64,000 nucleotides of DNA from Symbiodinium sp. CCMP2592 (taxonomy: Eukaryota; Sar; Dinophyceae; Suessiales; Symbiodiniaceae). The stretch lies in contig CAJNDT010004713.1 of the NCBI GenBank assembly GCA_905221615.1, positions 21,001 to 85,000 of the forward strand. Direction: 5' to 3'. The notes below the pieces were generated by a model. It ran no database searches. It saw nothing but the letters and a program-made list of their open reading frames with translations, and was not told the DNA's origin. Positions 7,801 to 47,159 of the stretch are shown here, piece after piece. Every line of letters starts with the position of its first letter. Position 1 is the stretch's first letter. The position numbers were made by a program, and so were the translations under genes.

Positions 7801-7906
7801 CGTGTGCCGGTGCTGTGGGTGTGCCAGGCGTGGCGGCTGAAGTCTGTGCAGCCGGGAGAGTAGGCAAGGGCAACTGGGCCTGCCCGGCCAGTTCCAGCTG
7901 CGGTTT
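4883..7906 (-). CDS. Reverse transcriptase-RNase H of the YR element, downstream of in-frame TGA
   Basis: The frame stays open from just after the Gag TGA (7909-7907) to a stop at 4883, about 1,000 codons. No ATG lies near the beginning (the first candidate start is TTG), so it is probably made by stop readthrough or another recoding event. A Pro/Ser-rich leader comes first. The RT follows, with motif A LSLDFKAAH and motif C YVDDLLAL (about residue 590). RNase H has Asp in CYSAADAFADTH, Glu in CFESLAQL, Asp in TASDNTSAES and Asp in VWADKLSRG. This RT-RH arrangement is typical of DIRS-type elements and would copy the element RNA. All catalytic acids I looked for are present. Confidence 0.88.
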   Translation of the reverse strand, partial: KPQLELAGQAQLPLPTLPAAQTSAATPGTPTAPAHVPAAPSGQHCPKTQQPEATPCKHSPAQMQEDSLTHSSASSSSEAEDAEPKTSKHRFLLHSIAEDPFSCDRFCYQAMAQHNTIEDELYSAWHSLVWSGAVGATLLLFPAQSFDLASHTRLCALLRAAHLQGSQVFFEYPRHCDDKIADLYTQLCQELAVHCIQMKLPQSDASHIICSTHTALAGATQQADPYQHMLSLAAQECTSHLNAPIQPSTLQKHLPRCFLPRRPAVCDGAGMFSTADHSANNVSSKPKPLAKLASAFKQYLTKHGLVSHIAKHLQSGQDSHPLSEDHRNALADIAHQTMAPNIDKNQFLRISDGQPFRLTALQYLAQAIHDKDAQLPIILDEGVPTGAFGALPSSGQWPTTQSSLDFADDFSPASLEHCRGNWFLAESNPALLQELVEEEVRKGFVAKFEGTEDDAKRHWPQGTAIGKLNIVMAEGRDPRLVLDSTVCGLNPAVHLPERVSLPNASDVQRTFLSDDCYAQLHALSLDFKAAHKCCKVSPADQGTLLFRVGNSLYYYKVCHFGARFSAYWWQRTGSLLLRCIHALLCDYPHRAWLYVDDLLALLRTADKDMATALIVALLSALNAPISWKKAQFAQEVTWCGWTIRTDAETIELRELKLHKLREQLIALQRKSKVQRKELEGVLGLLNWATSLSKHMRPFMAPLYKDLHSCKGTLHSISPNMWGTFLDCLDNNAKLTRTPAGSWLPRNAQLLEVGSLKIASKADVPLVPPSHKHQWLRLADPHRSEVHLRHESKFVLAWLQHCFAHEQPRSLRTAPRMHCYSAADAFADTHRMGIGGWISTADAFLWFSAIFSAEEVRKQWPQLQGSLQPYIGCFESLAQLALAQCSWQLLRSKQIRFVLPTASDNTSAESGLNKLFSTAEPLGTFLRLAATWAHLHRVQFEVEHLAGEKNVWADKLSRGSTAFLQHRTADKVEVTLAQLASASHCVTLHDHSLAWPQRLLDAQHAMLK

Positions 7907-9172
7907 TCAGGAGCTGGGCGGCTCCTGGGGGTTGCGGTGCTGACAGGCGGGATGACTTTTGCCGCAAGGCTCACCGTTGGGCATTTTGTATGCGCATGCG
8001 TGAAGATATTTGCACTGCGCGTTCTTGCAGTGCCCTTTATTGTACCGAATACAGAAGGTCTTGTTGCCGTGCTGTTGCACGAGGTCCGCTGTTTTGACCT
8101 CCTGTGCTGTGCCTTCGCCGGGAGTGCGCCTCTTGCCTGGCTGTGTGCCTTGCTTGCCTTTGCCCCCTTTCTCCTTGCCTTTGCCTTTGCCGTTGCCTTT
8201 GTTCGGTAGGCGAGGCGGTGGCTTTTGCGGTGGGGGAGGCGGCCGGGCGCGTAGCTGGAGGAGGTTGCCAATATCAGAGCGGATGCTTGTCATTTCATGC
8301 AAGGCGTCATCCAATGTCCAACCGGCGCTGTGCAAAAGCGAGATTTCGCGCCACAGTTTGCGGTCAGCCGCGACAAGCTCTTGCGTGGTGACTGTGCGGA
8401 GCGATGCGTCGCTTGGCGATTGCGTCGCCAGATCAAGAATCTTTTTGTCATATGCCTTCAGGCGCTGCAGGTGCGCTCCTTTGCACAGTGCTATGGCGTT
8501 GCGGAATACTGTTTGAACTCTGCCAAGCCATGCGGCGCTCAGCCTGAGATGATCAACCGGCATTTCCGGTGTGTCATCAAACAGTGCAGTGCTGAGGAAG
8601 GCTGCTTCGGTGCGGATAGTGCGCGATGCTTTGCTCTCTATGAGCTCTTGATATTGCTTCTCCGAAAGTCGGAGTTGCCAGGGCACCCAGCTAATGGTGT
8701 TCCCTGGGGAAAACCAGCGATGGATTATGCTAAGCAAGCGCACGCTGGGCATAGCGTCGCTGTCAAGGTGTTCGCCAGGGTAGTTAGTGCGAAAATCCTT
8801 GACGAGCTGTGCAATGCTGGATGCGTCCAGTCTGGGCGGGGCGTGTTCAGCCCATACGTTGAGCGACGCTTGGGCGGTGCTGGCAATGCTGTGAGAGGCA
8901 GGAGTGTCTGCCACTTCTGTCATGGACTGTGCACGGCGGAGTGCTCGGCGAAGGCGCGCCATTGCTGGGCAGTGCACTGGGTCTGAGACGCCCAATTCAT
9001 CCCAGAGCTCATCGTATTTGTCAGAGCAGAACACATCAAGGTCTGCAGTGCTGTTATATGCAAATGCGAAATCTGGCACCGACTCAATGCCGGTTCTGTG
9101 CAGTGCGTTGCAGAGGGCTTCGGGCACCTGCATCTGTGAGAGGAGATCCGAAAGTGCGTCCGGGGACTCCAT
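7907..9172 (-). CDS. Gag-like protein of the YR element with CCCH zinc finger
   Basis: 421 residues starting at a real ATG (9172). The N-terminal 80 residues form a helical region (LLSQMQVPEALCNALHRTGI) that resembles a SAM-type or helix-hairpin fold. The middle is helical and charged. A Pro/Gly/Lys-rich linker (about residues 320-370) precedes the C-terminal finger CIRYNKGHCKNAQCKYLHAC plus CGKSHPACQH, so RNA binding is expected. The TGA at 7909-7907 is in the same frame as the RT-RNase H frame, with 11 sense codons and then its first possible start. The position is right for a structural protein expressed in excess over polymerase. Confidence 0.8.
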   Translation of the reverse strand: MESPDALSDLLSQMQVPEALCNALHRTGIESVPDFAFAYNSTADLDVFCSDKYDELWDELGVSDPVHCPAMARLRRALRRAQSMTEVADTPASHSIASTAQASLNVWAEHAPPRLDASSIAQLVKDFRTNYPGEHLDSDAMPSVRLLSIIHRWFSPGNTISWVPWQLRLSEKQYQELIESKASRTIRTEAAFLSTALFDDTPEMPVDHLRLSAAWLGRVQTVFRNAIALCKGAHLQRLKAYDKKILDLATQSPSDASLRTVTTQELVAADRKLWREISLLHSAGWTLDDALHEMTSIRSDIGNLLQLRARPPPPPQKPPPRLPNKGNGKGKGKEKGGKGKQGTQPGKRRTPGEGTAQEVKTADLVQQHGNKTFCIRYNKGHCKNAQCKYLHACAYKMPNGEPCGKSHPACQHRNPQEPPSS

Positions 9173-9364
9173 TCTGCAGGCTAGAAGCGAAAGAGAGGTC
9201 TAAGTTCGAGCAAGAAAACGGCTGCGGATGTAAGGATGGCGGTGACAATGCGTCTGGTGCAGGGCAGATGCAGGGCGGCGCACCCGAAGAGCGACCTGAG
9301 TAAGCAAAAGCTGAAGGATATGCGGCGAGTGAAACCAACAGCAAGAGAGCGGATCCTTTTTTAT

Positions 9365-11662
9365 TCAAGCGCCATTGCGGAGTGCGACGCAAGCCGAGCG
9401 ACGGCAGTGAGGCTGTGGCGGTGCGTTGGAAGTGAAGGCAGCTGTGCCTAGCTTGATCCCACATGCTGTGCGCAGCACGCCGGATTCGTCAGGTGGGCAG
9501 AGCGAGTGCCAACAGCCCCAAGGGCCTGTGCATGCAAAAAGCGGTGTTGGACCTTCCAAGTCGATTTGCAAGGGTTCTTTAGAGGATACTGACGATGCTT
9601 CGCTGGAGGATTCGGAGCTTTGGCGTTGCAACGCCGCGTTTTCCACCATCCAGGCTTCTTCATCTGAGAAGGGTGCGATGGGGTCCGGCGATTCTGGCGA
9701 GAATTGCTCAATGATGTCTGGCGAGCTCTGCGTAGCCTGTTGCGATGCCGGGTCCAGCTGTGTGGGTGCCGGATGATGTTGCGATGCGGCGTGCATTTCT
9801 TCGTGCCTGGATGCAAAAGCCTTCCAAGGACCTGCCAGGACTTCCTGGGCGGTGATGCTTTGCAGTGGCTCCCCCGCTGGGAGGTGAAAAGGGGGCTCTG
9901 GAATGGGTGCTTGGCCTCCTCTGGCAACACTGCGGTTTGGCCGCCAGCCTGTGCTGAATGCTTGTGCGAGGCGGTGCTGGAGGTCAAGGCTGTCGAAAGT
10001 GTCATTCCGGCTATAAAGCCTTGCGCTGTCCCTGTGGTGTCCTTGAGCCAGGCGTAGCTCTTTGTAGACGCGGAGCTGTGCGGCCGCTGCCAACAGGGTG
10101 CTTTTCATGCTGTGCAGTGTGAGTTGTCGCGCTTCGCTGGGCAAGAGACCACTGCCGCTGGCCTTCCATGGCAGTGTGGCCAGGTATCTAAGGCTGAGCA
10201 GGGCAGTGCAGTATGATGCTGGGGCAAGCTCTTCGACCAAGCTTTGGTCTAGTGCCGTGCTGAACCACAAAAAATCCGGCGGATCTCCCGATGAGGAGTC
10301 CACGATGCGGTGCAATGCTGAGAGCCAGTGCAGTGTCCAGCAGGTGGCCTTGCACCGGCCAGTGATACCCGCGAGGGTAACTGCGAATGGCTGGCCTTGC
10401 GTTGTAGTTTTCGTCGCCCAGCAGGTGCCGTGCAATGCAGAAGTGGAGAGCGATAGGCTGGAGAAGTCAATGCGTTGCAGGTCGCCAAAACGCAGACTAG
10501 CGTGGATGGCGAGCAGTGCAGCCCCCAGGACGGCGACAGTTGTGACGGGGGCGTTTGGGTCACAAACTCGCTGCTCCCAGGCAGCGATCAGTGCCCAGGG
10601 GATGGGCAGTGCTTCGCGACGGTCTTGAGCAGTGCCTTTGAGGGAATAGGCCCTTATAATCGGGCTGTCTAGTGCGTTGCTAAGGCATGACCACTGCGTT
10701 TGCCTTACGAACCAGCGAAGGGCTTTGATGGAAGAGGCGGCGCTGATGCGATGAATTTCCAGGTCTTGGCTGTGCGATGCCCTGGCCAGGGCGAGGAAAT
10801 CGAGTAGGCAGTGCAGGCTGACGTCGAAGAAGCTGACTGCGGAGCTGCAAAGAAAGTCCATGAATAGCGATGCAATGCGGAGATATCGCTCCAGTGTGCC
10901 TGGTGTGTTGTTGCGGATTACCGCCATAATATGGTCCGATGCTTGTTTGGCTGCTTCCACCGATTGCAAAAGATGCGAGGCTTTGCCGAGCTTGTACACT
11001 AGCTGCAGCCAAAGCGTACCGCATATGTTCATACGCGATGCTAGGGAGCTGCGCATGGTCCTGAATTTGACTATGCGAGGCTTGGGAGGTGCAAGGGGAA
11101 TCTGAGATGCCGGCGGCGGTCGTGGCGTTGCCGGAGAGCTTTGAAGAGAGCTGTGCGGGATGATTTGCGTGGCCGTGGATCCTGCAAGGCTGCGCGGCAG
11201 CGATGGAGGGGGCGGTGGTGGCAGGCCGCCAAACTGCAGTGCCGGCTCGGGCCTATATCTTTTCGGCGGCGGTGCTATGTGCAGTGCTCTATCCGCCTGC
11301 GGGACAGGCAGGTAAAATGTGTTCCGCCGGGGCGTTGCCCGGGCTGTGGCAGGGCCCACTATCAAGTCAGCGACTGTTGGAAGGTCGCCGTGGCTGTGCT
11401 TGGCGTGGGGCGGATTTTTTGGGTGTGCCTGCAACAGGCGCTGCCGTTGGAAGACCTGTGCAATAGAAGGCTGTATAGGTGCAGGGTCTTCGATGAAGTC
11501 GGAGCAAGGCAGTGCGGGTTCTGCAGCAAGCGCGGCCAGGTGTGCCTCAAAATCTTCGGCTATGCTTCTGGGAGGCGATGCTGGTTGAGACTCCACTTCG
11601 ATTGGAGTGGAAGGTGCGGTGGTGGTGCGATCTTGGCTTTGCAGGGCCCAACGACGTCTCAT
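9365..11662 (-). CDS. Tyrosine recombinase of the YR element
   Basis: The frame is open back to 12082 but only from a TTG, so I place the start at the ATG at 11662 (MRRRWALQ). A Pro-rich N-terminal third is followed by a helical core-binding region and the catalytic domain. Arg I lies in HASLRFGDLQRI, a beta-hairpin Lys in CWATKTTTQG, the HxxK pair in LHSMKST, then QGHH and the nucleophile Tyr in ARLYSRND. These match the R-K-H-x-x-R/K-H-Y pattern of DIRS/Crypton recombinases, which integrate circular DNA without target duplication, as seen here. The C-terminal tail (about 150 residues) is acidic and Ser-rich. The gene lies upstream of gag and RT, the reverse of most DIRS elements. Confidence 0.88.
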   Translation of the reverse strand: MRRRWALQSQDRTTTAPSTPIEVESQPASPPRSIAEDFEAHLAALAAEPALPCSDFIEDPAPIQPSIAQVFQRQRLLQAHPKNPPHAKHSHGDLPTVADLIVGPATARATPRRNTFYLPVPQADRALHIAPPPKRYRPEPALQFGGLPPPPPPSLPRSLAGSTATQIIPHSSLQSSPATPRPPPASQIPLAPPKPRIVKFRTMRSSLASRMNICGTLWLQLVYKLGKASHLLQSVEAAKQASDHIMAVIRNNTPGTLERYLRIASLFMDFLCSSAVSFFDVSLHCLLDFLALARASHSQDLEIHRISAASSIKALRWFVRQTQWSCLSNALDSPIIRAYSLKGTAQDRREALPIPWALIAAWEQRVCDPNAPVTTVAVLGAALLAIHASLRFGDLQRIDFSSLSLSTSALHGTCWATKTTTQGQPFAVTLAGITGRCKATCWTLHWLSALHRIVDSSSGDPPDFLWFSTALDQSLVEELAPASYCTALLSLRYLATLPWKASGSGLLPSEARQLTLHSMKSTLLAAAAQLRVYKELRLAQGHHRDSARLYSRNDTFDSLDLQHRLAQAFSTGWRPNRSVARGGQAPIPEPPFHLPAGEPLQSITAQEVLAGPWKAFASRHEEMHAASQHHPAPTQLDPASQQATQSSPDIIEQFSPESPDPIAPFSDEEAWMVENAALQRQSSESSSEASSVSSKEPLQIDLEGPTPLFACTGPWGCWHSLCPPDESGVLRTACGIKLGTAAFTSNAPPQPHCRRSACVALRNGA

Positions 11663-12194
11663 GGTTTGAACCGTTTGAGCAGAAAAAGGCTGCGGGAAAT
11701 GCTGTGCGTTGCTTGCGGGTTGTGTGAGACAAGCAGTGCTGTGCAGTGCAGAAATGTCAACCAAGCTCAAGCGACAGAGCTGACCTGTGCATTCAGGGCC
11801 GGGCCAACCTGAGAGTCCAGGCATTGCCTGGCCTGGAACGACGGGATGTGCTCGTACCGGTGGTCCTGACAGGTTCGCTGCATGGCGAGTGGCACACCGG
11901 TGAGTGCAACCATGGGGCCTTGCCAGGCAGTGCAGGGCTTCTGTCCTGACAGAATAGGCATAGCTGCGTAGCGACGGCTTGCTATGTATGAAGTGCAGTG
12001 CCGTGGCGGTGCTTTTTGCAGGCTGCCAGGCGCGGCAGTCGGGGCAGTTCGATGCTGCCGTGCATTTCAAAAACCACTGCAAGTGCGATGCGATGCTATG
12101 CTAAAGTATAATGGTGCTCGCCATTATCCTTAAGGCTAGGCTAGGCTAAGGTCGGATATGATGCATTGCGGGGCGGTGCAGGGATGGCAGGATC

Positions 12195-13142
12195 TCAATC
12201 AGAGTCCTGCTCATCCCTTTCTTTGCACTTGCTGCAGCGGTGCGGTGCATGGCCATCGCTTGGGGGGGGGTACCGCAACTTTTTGTTGCAGGCCGCCCCC
12301 CCAAACTTGCAATTCGTCTCGCACATTGCTGCGCAGAGCCAGTCGCCTTTGGCGCTCTTGTAGGCAGGGCGCTCATCCCCTAAGGGTGAGGTATACCACC
12401 TCACGTCGCAGTGGATGTGCGGGGACACTGCCACGCGGCGCGTGGCTGGGCGTTGCGTTGCGTGTGGCGGTGGCGGGGGAGGGTATCCCCAGTCAGCGGG
12501 GCAGGGCTGGGCAGGAGGCCATTGCTGCGGTGCGGGTTGCTGTGTCCAGGGCGGTGGTGCTGCTGTGAGAGGGGCGTATGCCATATGCTGTGCAAAAGGC
12601 GGTGCATGTTGGGGGGGGCCCCATTCTTGCTTCCCCCAGCCTTTGCCAAACTCCGGGGCCCCCCCCATTTGCCCGAAGTGCGGTGACGAGGGCATTGCAG
12701 TGCTGGGGACAGAAGACCCCCAGTCGTCTTCCACATCGCTCCACCTGGGGCGAGGCGGTGTGCGGTTGCGGCGCGGCGTGTGCTCCCGCTCTCTGCGAGG
12801 CGTAGTGCGGGGCGATGCCGGCGGTGTGGGCTGAGGTGGCGGTGCGGGTTGAGCTTGCTGTGCTGGGGGGGGTGGCTGTGCTTGTTGCTTTGCTGGTGGC
12901 CCTGTCCCGGGAGGTGCCTTGGCTGGGATGGTGGCCGTGGGGGGCGATGCGGATGCTGCTGCTGCTGCTGCGCTTTGCGGTGCGGTGCTTTGCTCTGCTG
13001 GACCAAAAATGGTCAGGCGAGCTTCGCTGAGCTCGCTTTGCAGTGCGTCGATTCTGCTGTAGCCGAGCTGCCGAAAAGCGCCGATGCGTTGCTCGCGGGA
13101 CGCCTGCAAAAGTGCTTGCAGTGCTGTGCTCGTTCCGGCCAT
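12195..13142 (-). CDS. Proline-rich protein with Cys-rich tail, YR element accessory ORF
   Basis: 315 residues from an ATG at 13142. The N-terminus is a short helical region (TALQALLQASREQRIGAFRQ), then about 200 residues rich in Pro, Ala and Gln with a basic patch (RREREHTPRRNRT). The tail carries Cys/His residues in GDWLCAAMCETNCKFGGAAC and HRCSKCKERDE, probably a zinc-binding fold; the GDW.C start recalls RanBP2-type fingers but the spacing differs. The function is unknown. Its position before the recombinase and its basic, disordered body fit a nucleic-acid-binding or Gag-like partner. The frame differs from that of the recombinase. Confidence 0.6.
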   Translation of the reverse strand: MAGTSTALQALLQASREQRIGAFRQLGYSRIDALQSELSEARLTIFGPAEQSTAPQSAAAAAASASPPTATIPAKAPPGTGPPAKQQAQPPPPAQQAQPAPPPQPTPPASPRTTPRREREHTPRRNRTPPRPRWSDVEDDWGSSVPSTAMPSSPHFGQMGGAPEFGKGWGKQEWGPPQHAPPFAQHMAYAPLTAAPPPWTQQPAPQQWPPAQPCPADWGYPPPPPPHATQRPATRRVAVSPHIHCDVRWYTSPLGDERPAYKSAKGDWLCAAMCETNCKFGGAACNKKLRYPPPSDGHAPHRCSKCKERDEQDSD

Positions 13143-15024: not shown

Positions 15025-15029
15025 AATGC
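15025..15029. repeat. Target-site duplication of the Copia element, left copy
   Basis: AATGC directly precedes the TG of the left LTR and recurs directly after the CA of the right LTR at 24617-24621. Five base pairs is the usual size for Copia integration. Confidence 0.85.
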
Positions 15030-15327
15030 TGCTGATGTACACCGACATCGATCGAATTTGGGGATGCCATGATAAAGCGCACTGGTGTTTTTCTTCGCAC
15101 TACACAAGTAACAACGGTTGGAAGTCTGAGCACTGCTTGAATGTACAAATGTGCTGTGCTACTGTATCCTTCCACACAGCGCTTACTGGCTGCAACTGCA
15201 AAAGACTCTTCGTGGCCCAAGGGGATTTACGTAGCCTTCCCTGTGGACCAAAACATAACGTGTATTCGCGGATCAGAATGCTGCTCCCTTAGCACGCCAC
15301 AACAATCTGGATCTGGCTGCAACAACA
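15030..15327 (-). repeat. Copia 3' LTR (298 bp)
   Basis: Starts TGCTGATGTAC and ends GCAACAACA on the plus strand, so it has TG...CA ends in both orientations. Compared base by base by eye, it is identical to 24319-24616. Confidence 0.92.
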
Positions 15328-15371: not shown

Positions 15372-18300
15372 TCATAGTCGATCCCAGTTGTTGATGGTTC
15401 TGGATGCTGCCTGGCGATCCGCTATGTTGCTCCACGAAAGCAAAGTCCGACCTTGTAGGTTTCGATGGCGCCAAAGCCACAACAGGTATTTGTATTGCCT
15501 GACCGTAGGAAGATTTGCCTGGCCATACGTAGATGCCATTGCTCCTCCAAGTCGTGCTGCAAGGTCTCCCTTCAGCCCTGAAGTCTGAAGTCCGTTAACA
15601 CGCAAAGCTTCCCGGAGCTCCTCGCATCTCATCAGTCCAGCTACGTCAACGCTGACCCTCAGGACCTCGGTAGGATCGTCACCTCCTTGGCTTGGTGTAG
15701 GGGAAAGCAGCATCGGCCGGTGATTCTCGCCGGACTGCTCTCTTCCCCTTGAGGGCTGTGTTCTTGGGGGTGTTGTAACCCTCATGGTGGACGGTTGCGA
15801 TATAGGCGACCTCCTCGGACTCGTAGGCGTACTCGGTGTCGTGATGGGGTTGTTCCCCACCGTAGGTTCGACAGCAGCCTCGGCGCGTATGCGCTCTAGC
15901 TCTCGTTCGATCGCCTGCGTCGTAGCATCCCTCAATTTGCGAAGCTTCCTCAACTTCCGCTTGGAAGCTCCTGGGAGCCACTCTTGCGAGAGCTCTGCCA
16001 CAATCCACTTCAGTCCCTCCCATATAACCAGTCCACCCAACACCATTAGGAGAACCATGAATATTCCCGCCATGTCCCAGTCGATGGAGATGCGTCGCTC
16101 TCGGTCAGGTTCCCCCGATGCCATTGTCACCATCAAACAGCATATAGTGGCAACCAACATTTTTTCCGAAACTGCGGCTGTGCTTTTGACTCCATGACCA
16201 TGAACCGGAACTCCATCGCCAATCATGTTCCATCGTTGTAGTAGATCTCGTATTCGTTGTCCCGCCAATGCCTTGGTTAACAGGTCAGCTGGCTGGACCA
16301 GCCCCGGAACGTGGAACCCCTCGATCGCGCCTGCGGTGATCATCTCCTGCAGCCATGCTGACTTTAGTCTGAGGTGACGTGTCCTCCATGAGCCGTTCCC
16401 TGCGCTGGTGGTCAGCGCAGAGATACTGTCGGATCCAACCCTCTTCGTCTCAATCTCCTCCGAGAGGTCCACCAAAAGAGTTTCTATCCCCAGCAAAGCT
16501 ACGGCCCCTTCCAATATAGCTGTCAGCTCCGCCTCCGCCGTTGACAGCGCTATAGTTGACTGGCGCGACGATCGCCATGCAATGGGGTTCTTTCCCCATA
16601 CCACCAACCATCCTGTATGGCTTCTTTCACTCTCCGGCGCGAAGGCGGCGTCGGGAAACATGGTGAGGCTGTTGTCTCCCCCGCGGAAGGACATACGCCA
16701 CGCTTTGGTTCCATATAGGTACCTGATCATCTTTGTTCCCACCTCCATCGCTCGGTACGGGGCCTTAAGGGTAAGCGAAGACAGTAACGAGCATCCATAC
16801 GACAGGTCTGGCCGGGTCTTCTGGGATATCCACAACAACTCTCCTGTGACCCGCTGAGCCTGAGCAACGCCACCCTCATCTGCTTCCATATCCCCGTCTA
16901 TCACGCTGAAGCTGGCGGTCTCCTTGCTTACAGGGATCTTGTCGGACCTCTGGATACCGTAGTTGCGACACAACTCCTCGATGTAGGCCTGCTGTCCCAC
17001 CAGAATCATTGACTCATCATCGGTCATAGACAGCTCCATACCAAGGAACCTGAGTGGATTATCTCGCCGCAAAAAGGTCAACGGACTTGTGGCCCATACA
17101 CTCTGCACCAAGCTGGCCACTTCCTTCACAGCGTGCTCCAACCCAATGATTAACATGTCATCAACATATATGATGATCAACGCCTTCATCTCCCCCGACT
17201 CGTCTGTAACCACCCACCAACATGTTACAGTTCTGCCCTGCTTGAAGCGCCACCCAGACGGCGTAACCATGCTAGCCATCGTCCTGTCGCGGTAGGCCGA
17301 CCAGAGCATTGGTGCCTCCCTTAAGCCGTATAGGGCCCTAATCAAACCCCACAGCTCTTGAGGCAAAGTCAATGATAGCCTCTCCAACACCTTTGGCGGG
17401 CAAACCACAATAATTGGATCTCGCACTGACTCGCCGATCGGGGTGAGGATAAAGGCAGCGACCACATCAATTAGTGCCACCTGCCAACATCGGGAGCGTG
17501 ACATAGCCAATCCTGCCCGCACAGCCTCCGTAGGAGCCGTTTCACAGTAGTAGTCGGACATTGAGCTCGTCGCCATGTTTCCACAAACCACTAGTCGAGC
17601 CTTCCTTCGGAACCATGTTTTCTTGTCGGCTGGGTCAGCTGCATCGTTCGGCTTGATGGTATAGACCAGCTTGGTTGGTAGACGTTGAACACCCTTCTTC
17701 TGAAGCCACAGCGCCCTCTCTGGTGTCCCGGGCATTAGTCTCCGGATTGCTACTTCAATCCCCTTGACCTCCTTGGCGATGGCTTCCTTCCACTCATCCA
17801 GGTGCAATAGTGCCTCACGTGGATCCACTGTGTAGGTCACCTGGAGGGGCTCCGTGAGGTTGGTCAGGATCTGCTCCACGTCCTTCGTGTAGGTCACCTC
17901 CGTTTTGTTCACTCTGGGAAAATCCTGACGCAGGCTCCCCTTTGACGAGCTCCCCACTTTGACGCGTCCCTTTTCTGCTTCGACAAACATTTCCCAATCA
18001 TCGTCGCTCAAGCCGCCGTCCTCATCGGTGTTTGTGACCTGCTCCTCCTGGACCTCTACCCTGTCCAACCGGGGGCCTGACTCTTGAATCTTCACAAAGT
18101 ACTCTGGCAACTGTGACAACGGTGTTGGGTAGCCGTAGGAGTCCAGGGCCTTCACATCTTCATAGGAGAGTTTCCCCAGGCTGTCCGGGGTATAGGCTAT
18201 GAGATTGATGCGAGTTCCCTCCCATGGCAGAACTTCGTGTGCTCGCCTTGGATCTAGCTCCACGGTCCTTCCCTCTTTCATCTCGTGGACCTGTCCATAG

Positions 18301-21300
18301 TGAACTCGCCCTTGCGGGTCGGCCCGCTGTAGAATATCGCCCACCAGAAGATCACCAGGCCGTAGCTCTACCCACAACGCTCCACCTCGCTCCGGGGTCC
18401 TGATTGGGACTATATAGTTCTTGGTGTTGCTGTCGTTGTTCGTGTCCTTGTGGTAGCCCCGATCACAGTTCTTCGAAACCATAATAGAGGTAAAGGTCGC
18501 TTCCGGGGAGAACTCCAATATGATCCTGGACAACAGCGTTCCCAGTTCAGGATGGTCGGGTAGGCCCTTCATCCATCCCACACTCCCACCATGCCTATAG
18601 ACTCCGAACTTCTTGTCCTCAAAGAAGCCAGCTTCACCAAGTTCTCCAACGAGTTCCGTTGCCTTGGTCACGTCCCAGTCCTCGAGGATAAGCTTTGCCT
18701 TGGTTTTAGCATATGCTCCCAGCTCACTTTCATTGAGGGCCAGAACCTTCATCTCGACGTTGCTAGTTGGAGTTTTGGCCACAACTCTCCTCCTGGGTTT
18801 AGGTGGGTCTACCACTTCCAACTCTTCTTCGGGAGGTCCTGGGTCATATAGTCTAGGTCTCACATGGAAAGTATGTAGGAAATGGCCCTTCTTTGCTTCC
18901 GACTCCGGAACATGTACAACATGGCCTCCTTCAAGTAGATTGCTGAGTCCAACATAACGTCCTCGGATCCACTTGGTCTCGAACGCCTTGTCACGTCGAC
19001 GGGGTCCTTGAGCATCAAAGGCCTTCTCCTTCACTAGGACCGCCGCTCCATAGGGGGCAATAAGTTTGGACTTCCATCCCAATACTCGTGCCCTCTGCTG
19101 TGCCACCGCTGTTTCCGCCGCCGTGGGCCACAAAGTCGTAGGCAATGAACTCCCCAACAACAGCGTCCTCGTCCGGTCCTTGACCCATCGCACTGCCGCC
19201 TCTGCGCGCCCATTTCCTTGAGGCACGCCTGCCTCCGACCACGAAGCCCTTATGTGTCGATCTCGTAGCCATCCACGGATGCTGTGACTGAAGCATTCTC
19301 CACGATCGGCATGAAACCGATAAGTAGGAAGCCCGTGAGCATCGAGGTAAAGAACAATGTCCTGAATCGCACTTTTCACTTCTGCACCTGCGTTGGTCTT
19401 CAGGGCCTTGGCGAACATGAGTACCGTACTCTCAGGAGGTTCGCAGTCTGGACGCAATCCTCCTTCACGATCGTGCCCGCCATGGTCTGGTTGGTCCTCC
19501 TCATGTGGAACGTCTTCATCATCGCCTGGAAGTGATGGCTCGTATTCCGAGCACTCGTAGTCTTTCAGGATCTCCTTCTGCTTCTCGGTAGCTCCGATAA
19601 GGCTAGGTTGTTCCACGACTTGATCACCGTCACCTTCACGACCTTGCTCACCTGGCACATCTTCTTTGCTATCACGACCTTGCTCACCTGGCACATCTTC
19701 ATCAAAAAACGGATCCCACTCTTCACGTGGTAGTAGTCGAGAAGGTGCTTCTGTCCCTCTGCTTTGCTCTGGTCCTTCGTCCAGCTTGTGGCTATTGTCC
19801 CTCTCTTCACGCAGTGGTAGTGGAGAAGGTGCTTCTGACCCTTTGCTTTGCTCTGGTCCTTCGTCTGGCTTGTGGCTATTGTCCCTCTCTTCACGTGGTA
19901 GTAGTTGAGAAGGTGCTTCTGGCCCTTTGCTTGTGTCTTCAACATCCAAGGGATCTTGAAGACCATCATCCTCAGGTGGTTTCCGGCCACTATAGGACTT
20001 CACGAACTCCTTCGGCAGAGTGTACTTGCCCACCATCAAGTAGCGGAGCCCCTTACCCTGAGTGCCCTTCGAAGTACAGTCCAAGCCCGGCTTCACTGGC
20101 CCAGCGATGTCAATCGTGAGGGTGAACATATCCGGATGACGAACTCGAGCGTGCCGACGCCCTGTTCCTCGGGCCAAAACACAGGTTAGGCATTCCCGAT
20201 TGTAGTCGAGGTGGTTGCTATCGACATGCCTTTTCCACTGCGCTGCCGTCATAGGACATAATCGCGGGGTAGTAGCGGGATGTCTTCTCCAAAACGTCAT
20301 CGCCATCACCACGGCCTTTGTAAGACCCTCCGACCAAGTCCCGCTCGTATCGCTTCCTCCTTCTTCCACCGGACACTCCAAGCCTTCACCCTGGAGCCCC
20401 TGTAGGTAGTAGACGTTGGTCCCCAATGTTGTAGGCAACGACCCATCTGATCCCATCGCCCGTTGGTCAAAGGTGACCTTTGTCATCTCGTACTCCTCCT
20501 GGAATGACTTCCACATCGAGGTATCCCACAACGCTCTTCTCCGCGGCGCTGTTCCCAACGAAACATCACCTGGGACTCCAGGCGGATGTTCCAACATGAA
20601 GGCGACAGGTCTTCCTCGATCCGCCCCTCGGGCGTTGAGGGCCCGTCCCTCTTCTGCCACTGCATACAACCACAACATCCGAGTGATCGCTGCCAGGGAC
20701 TTGTTGTCCCACACCACTTCGTCATTGACTTGGCGTCCCAGGCTCGACCGCCCCGGGGGCCCTCCTATCAAGGCCTCTATTCTCCCATGCATTGCGCCCC
20801 ACAACAACAACTTCCACGTAGAAGCTCTCATCACATCATGGGCGCGGTTCCTTTGGACATCCAGTTCTACCACAACGGTGTCGCCCTCATCGAGTTGATA
20901 CACCTGAAAGTGCCCCGGGCAGCCGGCGTAAAGGTGGATTATCCACCGTCTTGAGGTCCACAATCTCCTCCTCTGGGGTCTGCTGAGGTACTCGATGTCC
21001 TTGAAGACCTTCCACTCGTCGTTCATCAGGTTCTCCTGCACCAGGCCTCCCACACACTCCCCGGGTAACTCTGACAACATCGGCGAGTCCCTTATCGCCC
21101 GTAGTCCTGCCTCCATAGACCCATTGCTCACATACGACCTCAAATGGCTCCTCCACGAATCTTCCATCATGAGCTCAGACGCGTCCACCACATCCTGCGT
21201 GACCGCCGTGGCGTTCTCCAGCATCTCTCTTTTTCGGTCCTCCAACCTTGAAATCATTGCCAAGGCTTCTGCCTCCTGTATCAGAGGACACCCTCCACAA

Positions 21301-24300
21301 ACACCAAGTGACCGCGACACTCCATCAGGATCGATAAGGAAACATCCCCTTTGAGACCAGTCCAAAGAGTAGCCAAGGGTCTTCACCAGTTCTCCTAAGG
21401 GGACTATCGTTTGTCCTTGAGTCACCGTCGTGGTAGTGGATGAAGTTCTGCTCCTGGGTGGCATTAACAAAGAACCTCCGGATCCCAGCTTCATTGTCAG
21501 AGAGTTGTTGCCGGCGAGCTGAACTATGACCTCCTCCGATTGCAACCACTCCTCCTCGTCGTGCGCATTCCGAAGGCAGTGGGTAGCACCCGAGTCGAGA
21601 AGAGCCGTAGTCGACTTGTCCATTGCAGACACCCGAACATCACAAAGGCTCAGGACCCGAACTTCCGCCTTGGTCTTCTCAGGGGAGCTTTCGCCATCAG
21701 CCGGGGCCTGCGAGTGGATCACCTGCTGCGCCGCCTGAATCAGTGTCTCAAGGGTCCATGGAGTTCCTTGCACCGTGCCCTGGCTTCCTGAGGATAGCGA
21801 TGGTGCCGTAGACATAGTCGCCAAGCTGGGGGTAGTAGAGGAAGAAGTGGTAGCGGAGCCCTTTTCCCCGGTGGGATTTTGTCGTGATGATGGTTTACCA
21901 ACACCACAATCTCGAGCTCGATGACTTTCACTCCCACACTTCAGGCATTTTCTCGCTCGCACCTCCTTTTCCATACCACTCATTGAGTGGCTGTAGGCAC
22001 ACTTGTCCCCTCTTTTACATCCATTCGGCTTTGCGAAGTACCTGCACAACTCCTGGCTCTTCTCCCGGCCCTTTGGTCCCTTGGGCGATGCCGTAGGCGA
22101 AGACGCGTCCATTGCTTTCAAAGCCACCCCCGTACTCTGGGATGGTGTAGCTCGCTGGGACCCAGCGATCGCCTCCAACTCCGCCTGTAGGTGTCTTTGG
22201 TAACCCTGAACTTGTTCCAGTGTTGGTTGTCCATCCAACCTGTAGGTCGACCTCAGCATGCTTGTTCGGAACGATGCATCGGCCGAAGAGTTGATCGACT
22301 TCGCGGTTAGGGCCTGTAGCCCCCTGCTCATGACCAATGGGTCCGGTGGACTCATTCCCATTGTCCGGCACCGACTCAACCACCTCGGCCAACTCCTGAC
22401 CTCTGCTAGAACCGCCTCCACGCTGTCGCCTGCAAGATACTCCTGCGGAGACTGCAGCCTCTTCAGCACTTCTTGTCTCTCCGCTGATCCGCCCGGCTGG
22501 AACCAAATGAACAGCCGAAACAACATCGCGGGAGCCCTCTGAGTCAACTGCTGCGCCACCATGTCACCCTTGATCTCCTGTGGCATTGATCCCAGAAGCA
22601 TTGTACAGGCTCTCGCATTCATCCGGCTCCACGGGTCCTGACACAGCTCGTCCATGCCTTCCAGGGTGATTGCTAACCTCTCCAAATGAGAGGCCGCAAG
22701 CCATCGGCTGTAAGCGGCTCGGACCACCATCAAGGCTGCTCCCCACCACTGGCCCGACTTCTCGCTGACATCCGTCATCGCAGTGGTAGTGATTTCCAAC
22801 CAGTCGCTGAATCTAAGAGATGCCTCGGCGCCTCCCTTGTGATCTGGTAATTGTGCCAAACTCGTGGTCCCGGCCTTCAGGGATTCTGCTGGCCCAGATG
22901 CCGAGGTTTTTGTAAGGGCCTGCGCCTGTAGTTGCTGAAGTTGCTGCATTCCTCGAGCTATGGCTTCCAGCATAGGAGTCTCTGCCCTTTGCCCCTGACT
23001 CTGGGGCGGTGGCGACGGCGTGCGTTGTCGAGGACCTCCCAGTAATGATCGCAACAAACCTCGGGGCTCAGGAGGATGCTCAGGACTTGGAGGCATAGCG
23101 CTGCTTGAGGCTGGTTCCATTGGTGTAGGGACTCCGGTATAACCCCCTTGTTGGTTCCCGAAACTTGAAGAAGCTATTCGTGGATCACCCAATAGCCCGC
23201 CATGACCTGATCGTCCGCAAGGGCCTGATGCAACGGTAGGGGGATCACTCAATAGACCGCTGTGACCTGATTGTCCGCAAGGGCCTGATGGAACTGTAAC
23301 TAGATTGCCCAACAGACCGCCGTGACCTGAGCGCTCACAAGGGCCTAATGCAGCTGTAGGAGGATCACTCAATAGACCGCTGTGACCTGATTGTCCGCAA
23401 GGGCCTAATGCAGCTGTAGCGGGATCGCTCAATAGACCACCGTGACCTGATTGTCCACAAGGGCCTAATGCAGCTGTAGCGGGATCACTCAATAGACCGC
23501 CGTGACCTGATCGTCCACAAGGGCCTAATGCAGTTGTAACTGGATCACCCAATAGACCGCCGTGACCTGATCGTCCGCAGGGGCCTACCGGAGCTGTAGT
23601 TGCAGACTGCAGCGCATCCCGACTTCTTCTCACTTCATCCAACTCCCGCTGTAGCTGCTGATTTCGAGACTCTGAGTCTTCCAGAAGCAACCTTATCCCA
23701 GACAGCTGTCTCTGAACCTCCTGTTGTATAGCCTCTGCAGGTACTGAGCTCGATGGCGGAGTGCTTGGTCGTGGAAGTGGTAACCGCCGCGACCTCTGCG
23801 GGGACCTCAGAACGAAAGGTCGTCCTCCCGGCGGTGTCTCGCCGGTCAGCGGGCTGGGAGCCAGCTGATCATGTCCCACTGCCAGGTACGAACCCAACCG
23901 GCTCACCCATCGTGGTAGTCCTTCCATGACGCCCATCCAATTATTTTGACCCACATTCCCCACTCCTCTTGACCGCGGGGTAAAAAACTCATATGTAGCC
24001 GCCGTCTCCTCGCCTGCCGCCGCTATTCCAGCTCCAGGTCTGCCACCCAGGTCAGGGATCGTTGGTGGCATCGTTGCCTCCACCTGGCCCTGCATGGCTG
24101 TGGCCTCCAGCGAGGCTGGTGGTCGACTGGTAGAAGACGCCGGAGCATCCAGGAGCCGCGATGCCTCCATGGAACTCAAAGGTTCCTGCGCGGCTTGCAT
24201 TCCCTCCGCTCTCGGGGCTACGGAACCAGTGGCCCCATTGCCACCATTGAGACCGCTTGATTGCGGTCCGTCTGTGCCGTTCAGTTGCGCAGTCGGCTGA

Positions 24301-24359
24301 GCTTGGGCGCTCATAACCTGCTGATGTACACCGACATCGATCGAATTTGGGGATGCCAT
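15372..24359 (-). CDS. Copia Gag-Pol polyprotein with 2OG-Fe(II) oxygenase-like, membrane and SAP modules
   Basis: The frame is open from 24509, but that start is TTG. The first ATG is 24359, inside the LTR (MASPNSID), and the next, at 24314, lies just past the LTR. Residue numbers here count from 24509. Gag has seven 20-residue repeats (about 306-449), a CCCH finger CRYFAKPNGCKRGDKCAYSH (about 820) and a CCHC knuckle CLKCGSESHRARDC. Protease is LLDSGATHCL (about 975). Integrase has HHCC (about 1423-1443), Asp in TIDIAGP, Asp in HADRGECF and Glu in GNGRAEAAV; acidic repeats (about 1500-1670) sit between the two Asp. An oxygenase-like domain (about 1960-2115) has YHKDTNND and RRAHEVLPWEGTRINL. 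RT has DVVAAFI and YVDDM. RNase H has LSTAEAEL. The C-terminus has hydrophobic segments (about 2780 and 2812-2830), a basic helix and a SAP motif (about 2950-2975). Confidence 0.9.
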   Translation of the reverse strand: MASPNSIDVGVHQQVMSAQAQPTAQLNGTDGPQSSGLNGGNGATGSVAPRAEGMQAAQEPLSSMEASRLLDAPASSTSRPPASLEATAMQGQVEATMPPTIPDLGGRPGAGIAAAGEETAATYEFFTPRSRGVGNVGQNNWMGVMEGLPRWVSRLGSYLAVGHDQLAPSPLTGETPPGGRPFVLRSPQRSRRLPLPRPSTPPSSSVPAEAIQQEVQRQLSGIRLLLEDSESRNQQLQRELDEVRRSRDALQSATTAPVGPCGRSGHGGLLGDPVTTALGPCGRSGHGGLLSDPATAALGPCGQSGHGGLLSDPATAALGPCGQSGHSGLLSDPPTAALGPCERSGHGGLLGNLVTVPSGPCGQSGHSGLLSDPPTVASGPCGRSGHGGLLGDPRIASSSFGNQQGGYTGVPTPMEPASSSAMPPSPEHPPEPRGLLRSLLGGPRQRTPSPPPQSQGQRAETPMLEAIARGMQQLQQLQAQALTKTSASGPAESLKAGTTSLAQLPDHKGGAEASLRFSDWLEITTTAMTDVSEKSGQWWGAALMVVRAAYSRWLAASHLERLAITLEGMDELCQDPWSRMNARACTMLLGSMPQEIKGDMVAQQLTQRAPAMLFRLFIWFQPGGSAERQEVLKRLQSPQEYLAGDSVEAVLAEVRSWPRWLSRCRTMGMSPPDPLVMSRGLQALTAKSINSSADASFRTSMLRSTYRLDGQPTLEQVQGYQRHLQAELEAIAGSQRATPSQSTGVALKAMDASSPTASPKGPKGREKSQELCRYFAKPNGCKRGDKCAYSHSMSGMEKEVRARKCLKCGSESHRARDCGVGKPSSRQNPTGEKGSATTSSSTTPSLATMSTAPSLSSGSQGTVQGTPWTLETLIQAAQQVIHSQAPADGESSPEKTKAEVRVLSLCDVRVSAMDKSTTALLDSGATHCLRNAHDEEEWLQSEEVIVQLAGNNSLTMKLGSGGSLLMPPRSRTSSTTTTVTQGQTIVPLGELVKTLGYSLDWSQRGCFLIDPDGVSRSLGVCGGCPLIQEAEALAMISRLEDRKREMLENATAVTQDVVDASELMMEDSWRSHLRSYVSNGSMEAGLRAIRDSPMLSELPGECVGGLVQENLMNDEWKVFKDIEYLSRPQRRRLWTSRRWIIHLYAGCPGHFQVYQLDEGDTVVVELDVQRNRAHDVMRASTWKLLLWGAMHGRIEALIGGPPGRSSLGRQVNDEVVWDNKSLAAITRMLWLYAVAEEGRALNARGADRGRPVAFMLEHPPGVPGDVSLGTAPRRRALWDTSMWKSFQEEYEMTKVTFDQRAMGSDGSLPTTLGTNVYYLQGLQGEGLECPVEEGGSDTSGTWSEGLTKAVVMAMTFWRRHPATTPRLCPMTAAQWKRHVDSNHLDYNRECLTCVLARGTGRRHARVRHPDMFTLTIDIAGPVKPGLDCTSKGTQGKGLRYLMVGKYTLPKEFVKSYSGRKPPEDDGLQDPLDVEDTSKGPEAPSQLLPREERDNSHKPDEGPEQSKGSEAPSPLPLREERDNSHKLDEGPEQSRGTEAPSRLLPREEWDPFFDEDVPGEQGRDSKEDVPGEQGREGDGDQVVEQPSLIGATEKQKEILKDYECSEYEPSLPGDDEDVPHEEDQPDHGGHDREGGLRPDCEPPESTVLMFAKALKTNAGAEVKSAIQDIVLYLDAHGLPTYRFHADRGECFSHSIRGWLRDRHIRASWSEAGVPQGNGRAEAAVRWVKDRTRTLLLGSSLPTTLWPTAAETAVAQQRARVLGWKSKLIAPYGAAVLVKEKAFDAQGPRRRDKAFETKWIRGRYVGLSNLLEGGHVVHVPESEAKKGHFLHTFHVRPRLYDPGPPEEELEVVDPPKPRRRVVAKTPTSNVEMKVLALNESELGAYAKTKAKLILEDWDVTKATELVGELGEAGFFEDKKFGVYRHGGSVGWMKGLPDHPELGTLLSRIILEFSPEATFTSIMVSKNCDRGYHKDTNNDSNTKNYIVPIRTPERGGALWVELRPGDLLVGDILQRADPQGRVHYGQVHEMKEGRTVELDPRRAHEVLPWEGTRINLIAYTPDSLGKLSYEDVKALDSYGYPTPLSQLPEYFVKIQESGPRLDRVEVQEEQVTNTDEDGGLSDDDWEMFVEAEKGRVKVGSSSKGSLRQDFPRVNKTEVTYTKDVEQILTNLTEPLQVTYTVDPREALLHLDEWKEAIAKEVKGIEVAIRRLMPGTPERALWLQKKGVQRLPTKLVYTIKPNDAADPADKKTWFRRKARLVVCGNMATSSMSDYYCETAPTEAVRAGLAMSRSRCWQVALIDVVAAFILTPIGESVRDPIIVVCPPKVLERLSLTLPQELWGLIRALYGLREAPMLWSAYRDRTMASMVTPSGWRFKQGRTVTCWWVVTDESGEMKALIIIYVDDMLIIGLEHAVKEVASLVQSVWATSPLTFLRRDNPLRFLGMELSMTDDESMILVGQQAYIEELCRNYGIQRSDKIPVSKETASFSVIDGDMEADEGGVAQAQRVTGELLWISQKTRPDLSYGCSLLSSLTLKAPYRAMEVGTKMIRYLYGTKAWRMSFRGGDNSLTMFPDAAFAPESERSHTGWLVVWGKNPIAWRSSRQSTIALSTAEAELTAILEGAVALLGIETLLVDLSEEIETKRVGSDSISALTTSAGNGSWRTRHLRLKSAWLQEMITAGAIEGFHVPGLVQPADLLTKALAGQRIRDLLQRWNMIGDGVPVHGHGVKSTAAVSEKMLVATICCLMVTMASGEPDRERRISIDWDMAGIFMVLLMVLGGLVIWEGLKWIVAELSQEWLPGASKRKLRKLRKLRDATTQAIERELERIRAEAAVEPTVGNNPITTPSTPTSPRRSPISQPSTMRVTTPPRTQPSRGREQSGENHRPMLLSPTPSQGGDDPTEVLRVSVDVAGLMRCEELREALRVNGLQTSGLKGDLAARLGGAMASTYGQANLPTVRQYKYLLWLWRHRNLQGRTLLSWSNIADRQAASRTINNWDRL

Positions 24360-24616
24360 GATAAAGCGCACTGGTGTTTTTCTTCGCACTACACAAGTAA
24401 CAACGGTTGGAAGTCTGAGCACTGCTTGAATGTACAAATGTGCTGTGCTACTGTATCCTTCCACACAGCGCTTACTGGCTGCAACTGCAAAAGACTCTTC
24501 GTGGCCCAAGGGGATTTACGTAGCCTTCCCTGTGGACCAAAACATAACGTGTATTCGCGGATCAGAATGCTGCTCCCTTAGCACGCCACAACAATCTGGA
24601 TCTGGCTGCAACAACA
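24319..24616 (-). repeat. Copia 5' LTR (298 bp)
   Basis: Matches 15030-15327 at every position I compared. It should carry the promoter. It also carries the first ATG of the polyprotein frame (24359), so translation may begin in LTR-derived RNA. The coding-strand sequence just after it, GGTTATGAGCGCCC, did not let me name a primer tRNA. Confidence 0.92.
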
Positions 24617-24621
24617 AATGC
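24617..24621. repeat. Target-site duplication of the Copia element, right copy
   Basis: AATGC directly after the CA end of the LTR. It pairs with 15025-15029. Confidence 0.85.
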
Positions 24622-25090: not shown

Positions 25091-25660
25091 GGCGTTCCCA
25101 GCCGATAGTCTCGGGAGGATAGGTTTTTTAGGGACAGTACAGCGCTTTCGGCTGAGAGAGGGTCTTATGTCCGACAAGCTTTCGGCTTGGGAAAGCCAAG
25201 TTTTAGGGACGGCACAGCACTTTTGAAGCTCAGGTGCCCTAAAGTGCTGTACTGTCCCTAAAAGTTGGGTTTGGCAGAGTCGAAATTTAGGGACAGTACA
25301 GCACTTTTGAAGCTCCAGTGCCCTAAAGTGCTGTACTGTCCCTAAAATTTGGCTTTCCCAAGCCATAAGTGCTGTACTGTCCCTAAAAAACCTAAAAAAC
25401 CTATCCCCCAGCAACCTTCAGGCGTTCCCAGCCGATAGTCTCTGGAGGATAGGTTTTTTAGGTTTTTTAGGGACAGTACAGCGCTTTCGGCTTGGGAAAG
25501 CCAAATCTTAGGGACAGTACAGCACTTTTGAAACCCAGGTGCCTTAAAGTGCTGTACTGTCCCTAAAAGTTGGGTTTGGCAGAGGCCAAATTTAGGGACA
25601 GTGCAGCACTTTTGAAGCTCCAGTGCCCTAAAGTGCTGTACGGTCCCTAAAATTTGGGTT
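25091..25660. repeat. Tandem foldback repeat array, right part
   Basis: Continues the array of 3736-4278. The core GGCGTTCCCAGCCGATAGTC occurs at 25091 and at 25421, and also at 3975, giving unit spacing of about 305 to 330 bp once the YR element is removed. The unit at 25421 is an uninterrupted version of the insertion site. Confidence 0.85.
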
Positions 25661-25739
25661 TGGAGAAGCAGAATTCAGGGACCATTCTACTCTAAGTTTC
25701 TTGCTAGAACCGTGAATGCTGCGGCAAAGATTGTTGGAT

Positions 25740-46649: not shown

Positions 46650-47159
46650 ATGGACGAAGCATACAATTTTCTGCGGGAGCCCTGGCCAGTGCTGGCAAAC
46701 GGAAGAGCTGAAGAGCGGCGTTGCCGCACGCCCATTCTGGAGCGACGGCCCTCCGAGGCGCTGGATCATGGACAGCTTGCGTTTTACCTGCGTTTTCGAT
46801 GCATTCCAAAGTGGGCAGTGACAGATGCTGGCATTATGGCTTATTTCAGACAGTATCCTAATCCTGACCCCAAAGCCAGAAGTGAAATCTTTACACAGCT
46901 GGAGCGTGAGACTGTTGAGCGCGACATGGTCCAGACCCTGGCCTTGTTTCATTTTCTTCTGGAGGGGGATCACAGAGAGCAATTTTATGAAGACGTCTAC
47001 GAGCTTTTGGCGCGGCAGATTCGAAGCATGCAGAGACCAGTTCCGCTTGCTGACTTGTTGCGTGAGCTACCACGGGACGCAGAAACAGAAGACAGTACAT
47101 CACCCACGATCCTGGATACAGATGACTCGGGCACTGATGCCGAATTTTCGTGCAGCTGA
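46650..47159 (+). CDS. Helical acidic ORF upstream of and overlapping the LINE main frame
   Basis: 169 residues from an ATG at 46650 (MDEAYNFLREPWPVLANGRA). It is rich in Glu, Leu and Arg with strong helix character (TLALFHFLLEGDHREQFYED) and an acidic C-terminus. It looks more natural than the first 110 codons of the 2,154-codon frame, which it overlaps in another register. It may be a separate small LINE ORF whose product leads into the main ORF by frameshift. No family was recognised. Confidence 0.4.
   Translation: MDEAYNFLREPWPVLANGRAEERRCRTPILERRPSEALDHGQLAFYLRFRCIPKWAVTDAGIMAYFRQYPNPDPKARSEIFTQLERETVERDMVQTLALFHFLLEGDHREQFYEDVYELLARQIRSMQRPVPLADLLRELPRDAETEDSTSPTILDTDDSGTDAEFSCS

Follow-up and report, generated by a model that had tools for sequence, protein, structure and literature searches.

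A Copia retrotransposon in 64,000 nucleotides of Symbiodinium sp. CCMP2592 DNA (contig CAJNDT010004713.1, positions 21,001 to 85,000; hereafter the window) carries, within its gag-pol reading frame and between integrase and reverse transcriptase (RT), a domain with the predicted fold of the 2-oxoglutarate (2OG)- and Fe(II)-dependent oxygenases, and the predicted iron ligands of this domain are invariant among representative relatives. Upstream in the same open reading frame (ORF) is a C5-cytosine DNA-methyltransferase fold in which the catalytic Cys is absent. As judged from the models and the residues retained, one polyprotein apparently combines a dead writer-like domain with an apparently intact eraser-like one. 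Because an oxygenase resembling editors of DNA marks adjoins a worn-out methylating domain, such elements may be able to tamper with their own silencing marks.

An earlier note on this DNA had placed three oxygenase motifs between integrase and RT, and each is found there in the frame that was claimed: YHKDTNND (ORF residues 2019-2026, window 18455-18432), GGALWVEL (residues 2042-2049, 18386-18363) and RRAHEVLPWEGTRINLIAYT (residues 2088-2107, 18248-18189), all on the minus strand. The span given for the domain, 17990..18700, contains the matched core (about 18677-18168) but was drawn too wide, as 17990-18167 and 18678-18700 lie outside it. The order of the motif residues, taken by itself as evidence for the superfamily, was rejected because it does no better than chance: a loose HxD..H..R pattern is present in 69.6% of 1000 shuffles of the polyprotein and starts at 14 places across the six frames of the window. 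With residue order at chance level, fold and conservation were therefore needed as tests.

The AlphaFold2 model of the domain (scores in Table 1) is a confident jelly-roll (double-stranded beta-helix), and fold searches of the PDB matched it to NgTET1, FTO, AlkB and PHD2, with the VIA-align rows spanning model residues 31-200. NgTET1 (PDB 5cg9), FTO and AlkB share its predicted fold and the order of its Fe ligands at 9-15% identity. The jelly-roll, the HxD...H triad and an Arg or Lys past the distal His are fold and sequence features of the superfamily, and the domain has all of them, the first by prediction. Sequence searches were uninformative: the window's own domain matched no oxygenase family in Pfam, and when PDB sequences were searched with the domain or with two profiles, nothing meaningful was returned (Rab11 and a histidine kinase; E at least 0.1).

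To avoid circularity, relatives were collected with the RT region alone as the query, which found 92 long polyproteins; 10 more came from an oxygenase search alone, and these together with the window make up a set of 103. An oxygenase profile matches 88 of the 92 RT-found polyproteins, some of them only partially and weakly (e.g. P0093, P0136, P0138 and P0139), while P0111, P0137, P0145 and P0146 have no match to it. Within these 88, the first His is conserved in 86 (2 gaps), the Asp in 85 (1 Gly, 2 gaps), the Asn of HxDxxN in 85 (3 gaps) and the distal His in 82 (6 gaps). We then derived representatives from 99 rows by removing any with fewer than 150 letters and any that shared 80% identity or more with a row already retained. 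Among the resulting 64, only nine of 207 columns are strictly invariant: G55, G60, G64, H106, D108, N111, N117, W132 and H177 (domain numbering, to which 1914 is added to obtain the ORF residue). All three predicted iron ligands fall within these nine, for which simple arithmetic gives a chance of ~6e-5. The predicted 2OG-binding Arg, whose column ranks 33rd in conservation, is Arg in 74 and Lys in 6 of the 82 RT-found relatives aligned at that position. The earlier note had looked to a jelly-roll prediction and to conservation of the His, Asp, His and Arg in related elements for confirmation, and its superfamily assignment is supported on both counts, by fold and invariant ligands rather than by residue order. 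The note's suggestion of a role in nucleic-acid demethylation, hydroxylation or repair is more tentative, since protein hydroxylases score in both fold searches as well. Together, the confident predicted fold and the residues that do not vary among relatives lift the domain above chance.

The same nine positions are kept in members with as little as 20% identity to the window, as seen in an alignment of 15 chosen members plus the window (A3). Two further alignments hold the window with 20 (A1) and 17 (A2) of 33 relatives, three of the A3 members being also in A1, and 90 of 101 RT rows were retained for an RT tree. All 18 of the named relatives among the 33 matches of the oxygenase-search set are from Symbiodinium, and a search of the host's own genome (1.098-Gb assembly) listed 14 matches at 65-100% DNA identity, the window copy included. 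Judging by the invariant ligands, the iron site is probably under strong constraint in this Copia lineage of Symbiodinium-type dinoflagellates.

The position of the domain is also shared. The order integrase, oxygenase, RT is present in 95 of the 103 polyproteins, and in 92 (82 + 10, whether or not an RNase H was detected) the methyltransferase fold precedes these three. In P0138 (residues 1225-1300) and P0139 (residues 1638-1713), whose RTs are identical, the oxygenase match instead follows the methyltransferase fold and comes ahead of the integrase. Since P0131, P0142, P0143 and P0147, with RTs only 31-34% identical to that of the window, also carry the oxygenase domain, the domain is old by this sequence comparison, unlike the insertion, which is young and intact-looking because its two long terminal repeats (LTRs) are identical over 299 nt. 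The description of the element as young therefore stands for the insertion but not for the domain. No relatives were confirmed in IMG/VR or in a prokaryote genome collection, and tblastn of a divergent member against phages gave four records, all with E 2-8. A search for relatives of 116-369 amino acids, as candidate stand-alone host proteins, returned 45; the 11 inspected by eye resemble pieces of the polyprotein, and several of these carry sequence from the integrase end or the RT start.

The methyltransferase fold is recognizable from its model, for which all 50 of the PDB matches listed are C5 methyltransferases or DNMT3L. A PPx motif was scored in 94 of the 103 rows (that of P0094 is clearly false), and the catalytic Cys of PPC is present in just seven of these; the window, whose clade has lost this Cys, has GGPPG. 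Pfam PF00145 matched none of 18 members, nor four of the seven Cys-bearing relatives. DNMT3L works as a scaffold of this kind, and by analogy the domain is probably a DNA-binding or partner-binding scaffold.

What kind of oxygenase accompanies it? Nucleic-acid oxygenases lead the VIA-align ranking, in which FTO, AlkB and ABH2 stand next to NgTET1 (Z 10.5-10.0). A Pfam scan of 16 members gave Tet_JBP matches in four (P0132, P0135, P0142 and P0147; best E 4e-4), and one of these, P0142, matched 2OG-FeII_Oxy_3 (PF13640) better (E 0.0018). The invariant Asn of HxDxxN occupies what we take to be the place of the base-contacting residue in TET enzymes (TET2, NgTET1). These observations are consistent with the reading that we favor at roughly an even chance: the domain would be an active TET/JBP-like enzyme that oxidizes a nucleic-acid pyrimidine, in the element's complementary DNA (cDNA) or at the integration site, and so weakens or rewrites a host silencing mark, with the methyltransferase fold serving as scaffold. 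Several findings weigh against it. Protein hydroxylases also score in both fold searches; PF12851 has no match on the window itself in Pfam; and the four Tet_JBP matches all belong to a single clade of the RT tree, the one with Lys in place of the Arg. Those matches span 40-64 residues, and the best relative reaches 20.1 bits against a curated cut-off of 34.9; with matches this short and below the cut-off, we refrain from assigning the domain to the TET/JBP family. Other Pfam matches were weak throughout the 21 members of A1, including WelO5 (2 of 21, E 0.1) and Cupin_2 (1 of 21, E 0.03), and scans of 16 members against PHROGs and NCBIfam gave nothing convincing.

Under TET/JBP-like oxidation, the domain would bind Fe(II) and 2OG and, processed from the polyprotein or not, would reach both the cDNA of the element and its insertion site together with integrase and RT. 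A pyrimidine would be oxidized there, from 5-methylcytosine (5mC) to 5-hydroxymethylcytosine or from T to 5-hydroxymethyluracil (5hmU), and this oxidation could undo or mask silencing, to the benefit of the element.

We rank such base oxidation ahead of protein hydroxylation and AlkB-like demethylation, which are placed about level, and all of these ahead of a dead scaffold. A hydroxylase of the prolyl or aspartyl type, acting on Gag, capsid or a host chromatin protein, is unlikely but the best placed of the alternatives. It would account for the scores of protein hydroxylases in the fold searches, yet it is nucleic-acid oxygenases that VIA-align ranks first, Tet_JBP was matched by 4 of 16 members and PF13640 by 1 of 16 (although all in one clade), and the domain is housed in a polyprotein that processes nucleic acids.

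We also think it unlikely that the domain is an N-demethylase like AlkB, FTO or ALKBH5, stripping N6-methyladenosine (m6A), N1-methyladenosine or N3-methylcytidine from element RNA or cDNA and thereby countering epitranscriptomic silencing or alkylation damage. The close succession of FTO, AlkB and ABH2 behind NgTET1 would suit this activity, but neither Pfam scan, of 21 and of 16 members with four in common, matched an AlkB family. The AlkB family motif is RxxxxxR, and at the place of its second Arg (column 192) the relatives have Tyr in 57, His in 4 and Cys in 1 of 62; this replacement by Tyr speaks against AlkB proper. In support of demethylation, the AlkB of an orchid Ty3/Gypsy element demethylates m6A in vitro (PMC9289625).

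A more specific proposal, about which we are doubtful, is that the domain hydroxylates thymine (or 5mC). Retroelement enzymes would then be partly responsible for marking dinoflagellate nuclear DNA, with the element writing its own cDNA into the host mark and the methyltransferase fold guiding the enzyme or binding a host methyltransferase.

That the fold has been kept without catalysis, as a structural spacer or binding module, is improbable. There is a precedent in the same polyprotein, where the upstream methyltransferase fold lacks its catalytic residue, and the site is damaged in a few copies (Gly replaces the Asp in P0109, and others have gaps). However, the iron ligands are invariant in the 64 representatives and among the nine most conserved of 207 columns, which argues against a pure scaffold, as a scaffold would need none. 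Finally, the idea that the motif residues fell into this order by chance in a normal Copia linker, with which the frequency of the bare motif in shuffled proteins and the missing Pfam match would agree, is hardly credible given the confident fold, the structural matches and the deep conservation, and we take it as refuted.

Transposons carrying an enzyme that acts on DNA marks are already known; the combination described here and its host element are new as far as the literature searched. In fungi, TET/JBP domains in DNA transposons have been proposed to counter methylation-based silencing (Kojima 2025, PMC12730594). The resemblance lies in a transposon-borne 2OG-Fe(II) enzyme with HxD (there also HxE) and a downstream His; the fungal enzymes, however, reside in DNA transposons and Helitrons, and no fungal retrotransposon with TET/JBP was found (PMC12730594), whereas the dinoflagellate domain is fused within the pol of an LTR retrotransposon and its similarity to Tet_JBP is marginal. 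The orchid AlkB, ALKBH5-like, is likewise a 2OG dioxygenase of an LTR retrotransposon with conserved cofactor residues, but it is a recent acquisition in Gypsy, encoded in a separate ORF and close to plant RNA demethylases; in the same study, no domain gain was seen in plant Copia (PMC9289625). The Copia domain, unlike the orchid one, is old, is in frame between integrase and RT, and lacks the second Arg of the AlkB motif.

The closest parallel to the upstream domain is in Symbiodinium itself, where SymbioLINE-Dnmt and SymbioDIRS-Dnmt3 are retrotransposons with a C5-DNA-methyltransferase domain, found with a Pfam model (de Mendoza 2018, PMC5890265). That paper describes Copia as the most abundant Symbiodinium retrotransposons and as lacking any DNA methyltransferase domain (PMC5890265). 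The Copia fold differs in being undetected by Pfam in the members scanned, in being mostly Cys-less and in being accompanied by a dioxygenase. The known mark-enzyme transposons have one enzyme each: Symbiodinium LINE and DIRS elements carry methyltransferases, fungal DNA transposons TET/JBP, and orchid Gypsy an AlkB. One Copia lineage has both predicted folds, with a degraded methyltransferase and a preserved oxygenase site. No report of dinoflagellate retrotransposons encoding a 2OG oxygenase was found in the open-licence literature, judged by titles and the beginnings of abstracts.

In Symbiodiniaceae, CG sites are hypermethylated by default, and in dinoflagellates 5hmU replaces 12-70% of T, for a reason that a review calls unknown; TET-family enzymes are there only supposed to make 5hmU in general (PMC6723414). 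Most repeats of Breviolum are enriched in 5hmU, according to another study (PMC11071213). The oxygenase domain offers a concrete, expressible candidate for two questions: how elements survive in a heavily CG-methylated genome, and what makes dinoflagellate 5hmU.

Table 1. Features of the Copia element and its two mark-enzyme-like domains, in window coordinates. pLDDT, predicted local distance difference test score; pTM, predicted template modeling score.
Feature	Position	Strand	Basis or remark
2OG-Fe(II) oxygenase-fold domain, ORF residues 1945-2114	18168..18677	-	AlphaFold2 pLDDT 89.6, pTM 0.85; VIA-align to PDB
HxD iron site H2020-K-D2022 (predicted ligands)	18444..18452	-	H and D in 64/64 representatives
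Asn 2025 of HxDxxN, invariant	18435..18437	-	N in 64/64 representatives
Distal His 2091, predicted iron ligand	18237..18239	-	H in 63/63 representatives
Arg 2100, predicted 2OG-binding	18210..18212	-	R 74, K 6, D 1 and N 1 among 88 RT-found polyproteins, with 6 gaps
C5-cytosine DNA-methyltransferase-fold domain, ORF residues 1186-1410, between protease and integrase	20280..20954	-	model pLDDT 78.8; PDB fold search
Gly at methyltransferase catalytic Cys place (PPC to PPG; GGPPGR)	20751..20753	-	motif census
Copia gag-pol ORF, 3045 amino acids, open throughout	15372..24509	-	TTG start mechanical; ATG (MASPNSI) at 24359
Reverse transcriptase, PF07727 / RVT_2, residues 2272-2520	16950..17696	-	Pfam E 1.3e-15
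Integrase region, HHCC-like start at residue 1428, limits approximate	19110..20228	-	motif places; order common to relatives
Aspartic protease motif LLDSGAT, residue 970	21582..21602	-	motif place
CCCH zinc finger PF00642, residues 819-843	21981..22055	-	Pfam; then CCHC knuckle, residue 855, by eye
SAP-like DNA-binding motif near C terminus, residues 2959-2987	15549..15635	-	PF02037 E 5.7e-5, 23.1 bits; slightly below cut-off 23.9
5' LTR, 299-nt identical repeat	24318..24616	-	TG..CA ends if last base counted with duplication
3' LTR, 299 nt identical to 5' LTR	15029..15327	-	repeat comparison

The host element has the marks of a Copia (Ty1) element: RVT_2, an integrase ahead of the RT, and LTRs with a target-site duplication (Table 1). 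The duplication is 5 bp, GCATT, at 15025-15029 and 24617-24621, with the terminal G counted outside the LTR. Two labels in the table are our own assumptions from motifs: the integrase region, which has no Pfam call, and LLDSGAT, which we take to be the aspartic protease motif. Past the RNase H, 15372-16202 (minus strand) encodes a hydrophobic, possibly membrane, stretch together with the SAP-like motif; of the 103 polyproteins, 66 have a match to the hydrophobic region and 38 to the SAP region. Tandem repeats with a 60-nt (20-residue) step are present in the gag part at 23112-23651 (minus strand), and three copies of an 84-nt repeat lie in the integrase region at 19714-19965.

The window holds other retroelements. 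A second one adjoins it at 4883-13142 (minus strand), with one ORF that matches RVT_1 slightly below cut-off (E 1.6e-5), another in which CCCH fingers are matched weakly (E 0.0085-0.22), and a third of 905 amino acids that has no Pfam call and is tyrosine-recombinase-like by eye, presumably as in DIRS elements. On the plus strand, a 2154-residue ORF at 46825-53289 resembles a long interspersed nuclear element (LINE), with RVT_1 (E 2.5e-12) followed by weak C2H2-like fingers (E 0.0072), and a weak RVT_2 match at 31658-32317 (E 0.017) is perhaps a decayed Copia remnant. Finally, ~560 nt past the 5' LTR, a 179-nt repeat is present in two direct copies that are 93% alike (25178-25661).

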